A DNA stretch of 64,000 nucleotides, taken from Methanolobus profundi. GTDB lineage: Archaea; Halobacteriota; Methanosarcinia; Methanosarcinales; Methanosarcinaceae. Shown one piece after another: positions 16,459 to 64,000 of this stretch. The position numbers and the translations under genes are program-made. How positions within the stretch are numbered: the first letter of the stretch is position 1; each line of letters starts with the position of its first letter. The notes under the pieces were generated by a model that saw only the letters and a list, made by a program, of their open reading frames with translations, was not told the origin of the DNA and did not search any database. Location: positions 806,001 through 870,000 of the forward strand of contig NZ_FOUJ01000001.1 of the NCBI RefSeq assembly GCF_900114835.1, written 5' to 3'.

Positions 16459-16559
16459 TATCCTGAATTAGTGGTATAGCATAAATCAGGTCCTTGAATA
16501 TATTGTGACCACTAAAAAGCAGATGTCCAGATAAATTTCCCTAAATGTAGTAATAAAGC

Positions 16560-16708
16560 ATCATTGGCCAAATCAGGAAAGTGGTAAATATGGGGGTGGT
16601 TGGTTGGGTTGGCCAATGATACTGGAGTTGGGTAGTTTTTCATTAATTAAAGAGGGTGGTCCGCAATTAATGAGTGATGATGGGATGGTTATGTTGTTCC
16701 CAACTCTG
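16560..16708 (-). ncRNA. Candidate structured small RNA with CCAACCAACC loop
   Basis: Read on the minus strand, transcription would begin near 16708. The first stem is GAGTTGGG/CCCAACTC (16699-16706 with 16625-16632), enclosing a second, CATTAATT/AATTAATG (16665-16672 with 16641-16648), whose loop holds ACCACCC. Next comes a perfect 12-bp stem, ATCATTGGCCAA/TTGGCCAATGAT (16609-16620 with 16560-16571), whose 37-nt loop holds CCAACCAACC then CCCCC. The strand is C-rich and G-poor in the loops. A TATA box lies 25-27 nt before the predicted start. The plus-strand ORF here is G-rich and lacks family features. Confidence 0.6.
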
Positions 16709-16731
16709 CATTCAAAATGCCCTTCATCTAT

Positions 16732-16738
16732 TATATAT
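16732..16738 (-). promoter_or_regulatory. TATA box for the 16.6-kb small RNA
   Basis: Minus-strand AGATATATAATAG centred at 16735, about 27 nt upstream of the first stem of the candidate RNA. This is the usual archaeal box A spacing. Confidence 0.55.
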
Positions 16739-42239: not shown

Positions 42240-42405
42240 TGTAGTCACACAGTCTGGAGATACAGGCTGACTACACGACCAATGATCGGTGGTACGATCT
42301 GACCTTGATTGAAAATAACTGAAGCTAAAAACGCATAAAAACTGGAACGTTAACAAACCTACTCCAAATTACTCCCACACAACACACACAAGGTTTGTTG
42401 CGTTC
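42240..42405 (+). ncRNA. Candidate two-hairpin small RNA with G-free loop
   Basis: Hairpin 1: TGTAGTCA (42240-42247) / TGACTACA (42268-42275), loop 20 nt. Hairpin 2: GAACG-tt-AACAAACCT (42345-42360) / AGGTTTGTT-g-CGTTC (42391-42405), 14 paired bases, with a 30-nt loop (42361-42390) that has no G and contains ACTCCC and ACACAACACACACA. No reading frame of worth is present. A TATA box sits at the right distance. The design matches the hairpins at 16.6 and 62-64 kb. Confidence 0.6.
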
Positions 42406-61680: not shown

Positions 61681-62130
61681 ATGGATATCAGGTACGATAT
61701 TGAAAATAATGTGATGCAGATAGATGATGTTGATATACATCCCCATAGCCTGGATACTAATTTCATAGGTGTCTGCAACAATTGTAATTCAGATGTAAGT
61801 AGCATAAGCTATCACACCTATGAAGAAGGGATGGTAGTTGCTGGAAAATGCAGTCTTTGCGACACCATAGTTGCGATAATGTATGATAATGAATGGAACT
61901 GGCAGGGAGAAGAAACCATTTCTCAGTTCTTTGATATCAAAAGCAGCAATAACCTGAAAAACCTTAATTCGATCGACCGAAAGAAACTTGCTACGGTTTT
62001 TACTCCTGCTGAGACCGATGCTATGTATGCAAAGGCCAGAGGCGAAAAATACGTTCGCCAATACCTATACAGGGCACGTAAGAAATATGCAGATTTTGAA
62101 GAGCTGTTCGGGATCCACATAAATATATGA
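61681..62130 (+). CDS. Zinc-ribbon-like protein, unknown
   Basis: A 149-residue soluble protein with two CxxC pairs (CNNC at about 32-35 and CSLC at about 57-60) that should bind zinc, and a basic helical C-terminus (KYVRQYLYRARKKYADFEELFG). No family recognised; nucleic-acid binding is plausible. GGTGA lies five bases before the ATG. It is the last protein gene before the hairpin-rich non-coding region. Confidence 0.65.
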   Translation: MDIRYDIENNVMQIDDVDIHPHSLDTNFIGVCNNCNSDVSSISYHTYEEGMVVAGKCSLCDTIVAIMYDNEWNWQGEETISQFFDIKSSNNLKNLNSIDRKKLATVFTPAETDAMYAKARGEKYVRQYLYRARKKYADFEELFGIHINI

Positions 62131-62629
62131 TCGGATCATGCTCAAGTATATGCATACTAAAGCTATGAGAGTTAGGAATACGTGCGAAAATAATATAGAC
62201 AGTATTACTTTGAGTATTAGTGCATAGAGTGAGCATCTGCACAGTTTGTTAAAAACATAGAAGTAGTATTTAAATAACGATGTTTTTATAATATATTTTT
62301 TGATTTGAATATGCTAGGGTATTCAAATACAAAATATGCAAATAATACTTGCATAATTTGTTTTACAATAACGTATAATTAATAAACTATTACATAAGTT
62401 TATTGTATAAGTCGTAGTGTTTGACGATCTTTCCACATATTATGTGCAACTGTGCATATTATATCAATATCCTGGTAACTACCAAATGCTATTTACTGCA
62501 ATAGCCATATCATATATCGTATACCTGTACATATTAGCTACAGATAATGGTTTTGTAGGAAACAAGAACAACATATTTATATACTAACGTTTGCATCTTC
62601 AGATTTGAAGGGACATTACAATTCTAGCA
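62131..62629. other. Start of the long non-coding region
   Basis: No gene seen. Holds a perfect hairpin ATTTGAATA/TATTCAAAT (62303-62328) and a TATA-like TTTATATA at 62576-62583 that could start the first RNA unit near 62606. Confidence 0.5.
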
Positions 62630-62718
62630 TCCTGATAGGTGCAAGTACCACCACCCAAACATCAAACAATATCATATTTGTACCACCAACCCCCGTTCCT
62701 TCGTTTGCCCTATCAGGA
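62630..62718 (+). ncRNA. Hairpin unit 1: two TACCACC loop motifs
   Basis: Perfect 10-bp stem TCCTGATAGG (62630-62639) / CCTATCAGGA (62709-62718). The 69-nt loop carries TACCACC at 62646 and 62681, followed by ACCC and AACCCCC. Confidence 0.6.
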
Positions 62719-62740
62719 ACCCACATTTATTGATGAGTGA

Positions 62741-62892
62741 CAATGTTGCGTAACATTGTTTCCTGTTCTTCTATATATTTTAAGAACAGAATAAACTGTG
62801 TACAATTCGAAAAGAGGAATATCGGGGTTAGTACACAGGCGTCGAAGACAATAACATCGGCGTCTTCCTCCTTATAATACACCATCATAAGG
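62741..62892 (+). repeat. Cluster of five short perfect hairpins
   Basis: CAATGTT/AACATTG (62741-62758), CTGTTCTT/AAGAACAG (62763-62789), CTGTGTAC/GTACACAG (62796-62838), GAAGAC/GTCTTC (62844-62867), CCTTAT/ATAAGG (62870-62892). A CTTCCTCCTT pyrimidine run lies between the last two. Confidence 0.6.
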
Positions 62893-63078
62893 ATATTGAT
62901 ATCTTATGGAAAGCTTGCATAATTATCTTCTGCAGCTGAAAATAGTGGTTGAAAGAATTATATCATTAAATTAAGTTATATTATTGAATATAAAATAAGT
63001 ACTGAACTTATAAATAGAATAATATAAAAACTAAATGTAGAATATAGTGTGGGATAATATGCTATATCACATATTAGT

Positions 63079-63191
63079 TGCCTATAGGGTCCTTCAGGAT
63101 CCCTAACCTAACATGTACCCTTATAGGCAGCATTTTATACTTACGGCAGTGCTCGCTGCAACAATTCCTCCTTCTCTTAAAGTGTGTTGCA
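63079..63191 (+). ncRNA. Hairpin unit 2: ACCTAACATGT loop plus CCTCC loop
   Basis: Stem TGCCTATAGGGT / ACCC-t-TATAGGCA (63079-63090 with 63117-63129, one bulge) with ACCTAACATGT in the loop. It is followed by TGCAACA/TGTTGCA (63157-63163 with 63185-63191) whose loop holds TTCCTCCTTCTC, which includes the anti-SD core CCTCC. Confidence 0.55.
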
Positions 63192-63285
63192 CTACGGGCC
63201 TGTCCAAAAAGTAATTTATCATAAACAGTGTTAATTTTGAGAATCAAATAATATGGATATATATAATATAGAAATAATTAATAGT

Positions 63286-63362
63286 GTGTGTTACTACATA
63301 TATAATAGTAACACACCCTATCCAAACCCACACAAGAACACCAACCTAGCAGTGGTGTTCTT
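63286..63362 (+). ncRNA. Hairpin unit 3: two perfect hairpins behind a TATA box
   Basis: GTGTGTTACTA/TAGTAACACAC (63286-63296 with 63306-63316), then a C/A-rich linker (CCTATCCAAACCCACAC), then AAGAACACC/GGTGTTCTT (63334-63342 with 63354-63362) with loop AACCTAGCAGT. GGATATATATAATA (63255-63268) is centred 25 nt before the first stem. Confidence 0.6.
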
Positions 63363-63397
63363 CCTCACTGTTACTTTCTAGCATATAACGTATAAGA

Positions 63398-63411
63398 GTT
63401 GCGTAACATTG
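63398..63411 (+). repeat. Direct repeat copy GTTGCGTAACATTG
   Basis: Identical 14-mer to 62745-62758, and both are followed by (T/C)TTCCT(G/A)TT. Confidence 0.7.
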
Positions 63412-63519
63412 CTTCCTATTGTATTATATAGAATTGCTTCTCAGGCATTAGAGCTCAATGGGTAGTTTCACTTACATTTACAATATCATATTATCTTTGG
63501 TACTGCTGGAATAAAATGC

Positions 63520-63574
63520 CGGTGTTAAATTATATATAGGTTCAACAACAGTGTAAGGCTGCTTGTTAACACCG
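63520..63574 (+). ncRNA. Hairpin unit 4
   Basis: Perfect stem CGGTGTTAA (63520-63528) / TTAACACCG (63566-63574), 37-nt loop. The loop is less C-rich than the others. Confidence 0.5.
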
Positions 63575-63612
63575 TTAACTTGCACATAAAATTGGATAGA
63601 GATGGTACATAA

Positions 63613-63735
63613 AACCTGACAAGGCACCACACCAACCAACCTAACATGTTCCTTGTCAGGTTACTCTGATGGATGATCAAACTTTAATATATGAGTCCCT
63701 ATTACAATGGTAATACCACCAACCAGCTCATCAGA
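63613..63735 (+). ncRNA. Hairpin unit 5: CCAACCAACC and ACCTAACATGT loop
   Basis: Perfect 12-bp stem AACCTGACAAGG (63613-63624) / CCTTGTCAGGTT (63651-63662). The 26-nt loop has only one G and holds CCAACCAACC followed by TAACATG. A second hairpin, TCTGATG/CATCAGA (63665-63671 with 63729-63735), follows at once and carries TACCACCAACC (63714-63724) in its loop. Confidence 0.65.
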
Positions 63736-63847
63736 ATCCCGTTTTCACAACTATTCTGCTTTATCCTGCATCTTTATAGCTATCAGTGGCATAACTAACC
63801 AGGGAACAAAATAAAAGATAGGTAAATAGCAAATCCGATCTCTTATT

Positions 63848-63905
63848 TAATGTAAGTTACATTACTAACAATAGATAAGTAACTAAGTTTCATAGATCTG
63901 ATCTA
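63848..63905. repeat. Two perfect palindromes
   Basis: TAATGTAA-g-TTACATTA (63848-63864) and TAGATC-t-GATCTA (63893-63905). Confidence 0.6.
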
Positions 63906-63932
63906 GGAAGAAGTAGATAATACTATCTTATA

Positions 63933-63993
63933 CACCTCTGATCCGTACCACCCAGAGGTGCATAAATGGTGCCAGGTCGGCTTTAATAGGCAC
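63933..63993 (+). ncRNA. Hairpin unit 6: TACCACC loop
   Basis: Perfect stem CACCTCTG (63933-63940) / CAGAGGTG (63953-63960) around a 12-nt loop ending in TACCACC (63946-63952). A smaller GTGCC/GGCAC hairpin (63969-63993) follows. The unit may continue past the window edge. Confidence 0.55.
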
Positions 63994-64000
63994 TACATAC

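Follow-up and report, generated by a model that had tools for sequence, protein, structure and literature searches.

A probable conserved small RNA gene with a variable C-rich loop in a methane-producing archaeon

The hairpin region at positions 16557–16708, on the minus strand of the window (the whole stretch of 64,000 nucleotides analysed here), very probably represents a genuine small RNA gene, conserved in evolution, in a methane-producing archaeon. It comprises two tandem hairpins, the first formed by helix P1 enclosing P2 and the second by P3, which carries a C-rich loop. Our favoured reading, which we hold to be fairly probable, is that of a stand-alone, trans-encoded small RNA gene whose scaffold is under selection and whose open C-rich loop most likely pairs with G-rich RNAs. 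To our knowledge, archaeal small RNAs are abundant, yet few families are defined by conserved structure. In the focal family, a testable scaffold is combined with a C-rich loop that can be exchanged, and the family leads on to a second hairpin RNA, conserved far more widely, whose loop is near-invariant and for which there are candidate G-rich partners; target recognition by methanogen small RNAs, an open question, would become accessible to direct tests.

Fold, homologues and scaffold conservation

In the predicted fold of the 152-nt core, P1 is an 8-bp helix between GAGUUGGG (16699–16706) and CCCAACUC (16625–16632). P2, at 16640–16673, holds GGACCACCC in its apical part, and P3, at 16557–16623, is a 15-bp hairpin with a 37-nt loop (all on the minus strand). 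The initial annotation had described a perfect 12-bp stem enclosing CCAACCAACC and a second hairpin carrying ACCACCC, and these elements are indeed present. The stem pairs 16560–16571 with 16609–16620 and reaches 15 bp once a G-U and two further pairs are added; the 10-mer lies at 16598–16607 of the minus strand; and ACCACCC, the minus strand of 16654–16660, sits inside P2 and thus within P1. The P3 loop (16572–16608, minus strand; CCCAACCAACCACCCCCAUAUUUACCACUUUCCUGAU), a putative interaction site, consists of 17 C, 10 A, 9 U and a single G.

The fold is much stronger than expected from composition, with a z of -7.47 against 200 shuffles. In a separate run, the minimum free energy of -38.8 compared with a dinucleotide-shuffle mean of -18.75 (sd 2.89), and none of 1000 shuffled sequences was equally low. 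Within the folded core, the 72 unpaired bases include 35 C and no G, while a slightly longer focal stretch has one G among 77 unpaired bases. Since 25 of 1000 shuffled versions of the core also lacked any unpaired G, the G-free unpaired regions are by themselves suggestive rather than decisive.

No convincing homologue emerged when the focal RNA was compared by BLAST with 60 relatives (the best match apart from itself had E 0.026), and loci L009–L013, which this search returned, look like chance matches on inspection. Homologues were found with covariance models, whose E-values are rough by the search tool's own statement. Model R1, built from the focal sequence alone and searched in 40 genomes, 39 of them others, returned below 1e-3 the focal RNA and one copy each in two of those 39, G019 (E 9.6e-6) and G007 (E 9.8e-5); three further matches at E 0.4–0.7 were treated as noise. 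With model R2, made from the linker and P3 of these three sequences, a search of 60 genomes revealed two additional G007 copies (E 3.4e-9 and 5.8e-8). One of the G007 copies lies on another contig of that genome. R2 also returned an antisense echo of one G007 copy (E 0.013) and weak matches in G019, G008, G022 and G048. Model R3 was then derived from the homologues only, namely the G007 copies (G007a, b and c) and the G019 copy (G019a); it recovered the focal RNA at 16553–16709 with E 8.7e-6, as the sole match in the genome of that RNA.

Because the R1 and R3 searches agree in two directions, we regard the homology of the focal RNA with the G007 and G019 copies as firm. The family is patchy, with clear homologues in these two other genomes only (three copies and one, respectively). 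Weak matches of the three models (E 0.003–1) in G001, G004, G008, G010, G014, G020, G022, G037, G040, G048 and others were left out of the family. Loci L196, L197 and L200 resemble two-hairpin relatives, a resemblance that is unproven.

Conservation of P2 and P3 is solid. P2 has equivalents in all four homologues, and P3 is paired in every member. Of its pairs, 13 can be aligned between the focal RNA, G007a and G019a; they form in 38 of the 38 cells with letters on both sides, and 3 of the 13 have changed on both sides, while slid alignments of the same three sequences drop to 21–55% paired. An alignment without the focal RNA still has 96.9% of its cells paired (20–50% in slid versions) and a covariation of 0.260 vs 0.190, a value reached in 0 of 500 shuffles, whereas its four both-side-changed pairs are not beyond shuffles (129 of 500). 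With only 3 to 5 sequences aligned, such shuffle counts are not to be read as probabilities. At this depth of 3 to 5 sequences, pairs are kept through changes on both sides, which is our criterion for a structured RNA gene. P1 is the weaker part, because its helix, although found at an equivalent place in all five members, is shifted in register between them.

These data bear on the explanation that the hairpins are a chance inverted repeat or an element acting at the level of DNA, such as a regulator site or a mobile-element remnant. A dispersed family, present in several copies in G007 and on more than one contig there, would be compatible with it. However, pairing has been preserved through both-side base changes, the P3 loops vary between copies while the stems persist, and the fold lies far beyond shuffles, so that we consider this origin highly improbable.

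Promoter, gene context and coding potential

A TATA box, TATATAAT, occupies 16737–16730 of the minus strand, 27–29 nt before P1 (a distance derived by hand), in agreement with the initial claim of about 27 nt before the outermost stem. In the homologues, where distances were obtained by script, the centre of a TATA-like element lies 26–28 nt (G007a), 28–30 nt (G007b), 31 nt (G019a) and 37 nt (G007c) from P1. This similar spacing is support for a promoter rather than proof, since AT-rich intergenic DNA often offers such boxes. RNA polymerase would begin about 21 nt past the box, at a predicted start near 16708–16710 of the minus strand, and the product would be an RNA of about 155 nt with the P1/P2 and P3 hairpins in tandem.

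About 100 nt separate the focal RNA from the stop codon of an upstream multihaem cytochrome gene on the same strand, and an FGE-sulfatase-domain gene is also nearby. This position is what a structured 3' UTR or terminator of the cytochrome gene, made only within that mRNA, would have. Such an origin appears improbable, given that a TATA box precedes the element, that the homologues adjoin unrelated genes, and that the cytochrome genes of G024 and G002, the two inspected, have no such RNA in the downstream sequence examined. Following the locus through synteny of the cytochrome gene failed, as full or partial relatives occur in just 3 of 26 other genus genomes (one has E 3.6e-6 over 55 residues). 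In Methanococcoides, the loci downstream of the cytochrome hold no comparable hairpin pair.

The five loci, one focal and four homologous, all have different flanking genes, which at the homologous loci were named from reading translations and not from a family search. The G019 copy adjoins genes other than those at the focal locus; one G007 copy lies by a histidine kinase gene, another between reading frames of 134 and 458 aa, and the third has a histidine kinase-like frame on one side and a frame of 323 aa on the other. Different flanking genes together with a conserved P3 argue for a dispersed, trans-encoded small RNA gene. A shared protein product is excluded: in three of the five members every one of the six frames is interrupted by stops, and in each of the other two, the focal RNA and G007a, the single frame free of stops is on the opposite strand. 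Both-side changes, unrelated flanks and a TATA box at a similar distance thus lend strong support to the initial proposal of an RNA gene transcribed from a promoter of its own.

Loop sequences, the 63-kb array and a genus-wide hairpin

The initial annotation placed the focal RNA in one family with a hairpin near 63.6 kb, whose loop carries the same 10-mer. The likeness in loop style stands, and CCAACCAACC is common to the two loops, a match exceeding chance (13 of 2000 shuffles as good). Homology does not follow, as the focal covariance model scores 10.8 bits (E 2.1) against 63608–63662, outside family membership. The low score and the common 10-mer indicate a likeness in loop and style, not in scaffold: the two RNAs belong to a common class, with a strong stem and a G-poor C-rich loop, on different scaffolds. 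Nor is the 10-mer a conserved element, because the focal homologues carry other C-rich loops, from which it is absent.

By itself CCAACCAACC is unremarkable, as its five occurrences in the whole 3.1-Mb genome are close to our own estimate from base composition. Three of the five lie in loops of perfect 11–12-bp stems. Across the genus, a subset of 77 sites was examined, and 13 of these fall in perfect stems of at least 10 bp, compared with 2 of 352 random positions taken from the sampled loci. Many of the 77 are within open reading frames or have short stems only; with homologues also lacking the motif, we dropped it as a conserved core. Hairpins of the class, defined as a perfect stem of at least 9 bp and a loop of 15–60 nt with at most 6% G and at least 25% C, number three in the window, the focal one included, whereas 400 kb sampled from this genome contained none. 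A third G-free-loop hairpin (ACUCCAAAUUACUCCCACACAACACACACA; 42352–42399, plus strand) is intergenic, lies inside a longer helix and has a TATA-like sequence upstream. Recurring intergenic structured elements with ACC-rich loops were also seen in other genus genomes (L104, L116, L098, L079, L124, L132 and others), and those scanned had no Rfam match.

The hairpin at 63613–63662 is part of an intergenic tandem array that extends beyond the window end (62558–64000 and L071:1-1520). Its units have TATA-like boxes and carry UACCACC, CCCUAACAUG and CCAACC in their C-rich loops; most of them fail the strict class filter. The array is syntenic in several other genus genomes, downstream of a conserved 149-aa reading frame. 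Its first unit (62608–62720), well conserved in 8 genomes, has GAAGGGAC, UCCUGAUAGG, GUUCCUUC and CCUAUCAGGA in that order and looks like an H-type pseudoknot in most of the eight. In most of these genomes the arms have changed and still match; the likeness is weakest in G019, where the second helix is weak. Upstream of the array, at 61681–62127, a reading frame with two CxxC pairs recurs in 32 of 60 relatives and has no Pfam or NCBIfam match.

The matches of R3 extended to a short hairpin, GUGAGCGGG...CCCGCUCAC, which has CCCACUCCCACACUAACCCCCACUCCCC as its loop and whose sites are overlapped by 20 of the 34 R3 matches listed. Its 28-mer loop, allowing up to 3 mismatches, is present in 26 of 27 genus genomes and, in a 3-mismatch form, in G031 of another genus; 24 of the 29 matches listed are exact, and the reversed 28-mer had no match in 60 genomes. 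Its loci include L232 (G000:C7:462474-462501, minus strand) and the others of L228–L254, and a TATA-like element lies upstream in most loci inspected. The two loci scanned, L232 and L254, had no Rfam match. With this genus-wide loop, the P3 loops of the homologues have 12 (G007a), 12 (G007b), 19 (G007c) and 13 nt (G019a) in common (0–3 of 2000 shuffles as good), and the CCCACUCCC motifs of the homologues' loops occur in it as well. The longest match of the focal loop is 7 nt, with 780 of 2000 shuffles as good. As the homologues share the genus-wide loop sequence and the focal RNA does not, the scaffold is conserved and the loop variable.

Pairing of the loop and relation to known small RNAs

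In the mechanism we favour, selection would keep the scaffold so that the nearly G-free, C/A-rich P3 loop stays open as an interaction site, and this loop would most likely base-pair with G-rich single-stranded stretches of other RNAs. Loops that are kept open and poor in G are suited to pairing with G-rich RNA. GGGAG, AGGTG and similar G-rich words are enriched in translation-start regions; the focal loop, tested on 331 such regions, gave a mean of -9.04, against -9.17 (sd 0.50) for 30 shuffled loops, and was no better than these, which argues against masking of ribosome-binding sites.

Other RNAs of the class offer candidate partners. G-rich leaders with GGGGAGUGG or GGGGAGUGA occur in array units of G025, G010 and G005 and in related RNAs of G012 and G015, and all seven tested outdid most shuffles in pairing with the genus-wide loop (0–14 of 300 as good), in a test biased by the choice of leaders for their complementary motif and concerned with other RNAs of the class, not with the focal RNA. 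At L153, L155, L149, L088 and L092, GGGGAGUGG/A leaders complementary to the genus-wide loop are followed by hairpins with C-rich loops; from their sequence, these RNAs are possible sponges. We tentatively entertain, as a doubtful but conceivable extension, an RNA–RNA network coded in loops, in which the CCCACUCCCACACUAACCCCCACUCCCC hairpin would take part together with the focal family, whose different scaffold would bear loops of a similar kind, exchanged from species to species (here for the CCAACCAACC style of the 63-kb array), and with G-rich RNAs, the GGGGAGUGG leaders of some array units, as antagonists or sponges.

The absence of preferential loop pairing with the 331 translation starts would also fit a decoy or scaffold role, with a single-strand RNA-binding protein captured by the C/A-rich loop in a CsrB-style titration. 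What the loops of different class RNAs have in common is short motifs (UACCACC, CCAACC, CCCACUCCC) and not long unique sequences, which favours such a role. RNAs of the CsrB/RsmZ type display repeated short motifs in hairpin loops, and the motifs of CsrA are GGA. The focal class resembles them in its loop-displayed short motifs and differs in that its loops lack G. As no candidate protein, CsrA-like or other, was identified for the class, and as there are G-rich RNAs that could pair with the genus-wide loop by complementarity, we judge titration of a protein unlikely and retain pairing with G-rich RNAs as the preferred role.

With membership in Rfam 15 defined by a score at or above the gathering threshold, only tRNAs qualified in the window and in 20 related loci, and nothing did in 9 loci holding the homologues and the genus-wide hairpin. 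At the level of titles and the opening lines of abstracts, we recognised no description of the focal family in the methanogen small-RNA papers covered. Methanosarcina mazei sRNA162, which according to the abstract-level account targets a bicistronic mRNA (PMC3510493), and sRNA154 are intergenic trans-acting small RNAs that come, like the focal RNA, from methanoarchaea; compared by description only, the G-poor C-rich loop on a P1/P2/P3 scaffold is a trait of the focal RNA that we do not attribute to either. For Methanolobus psychrophilus R15, a dRNA-seq study reports 195 small-RNA starts in 129 (elsewhere 125) intergenic regions, 43 intergenic regions with two or more small RNAs, and nine highly conserved small RNAs, all cold-induced and linked to a 'cold box' (PMC5378194). 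The R15 small RNAs may include members of the focal class, and the 63-kb array would fit the R15 layout of several small RNAs per intergenic region (PMC5378194).
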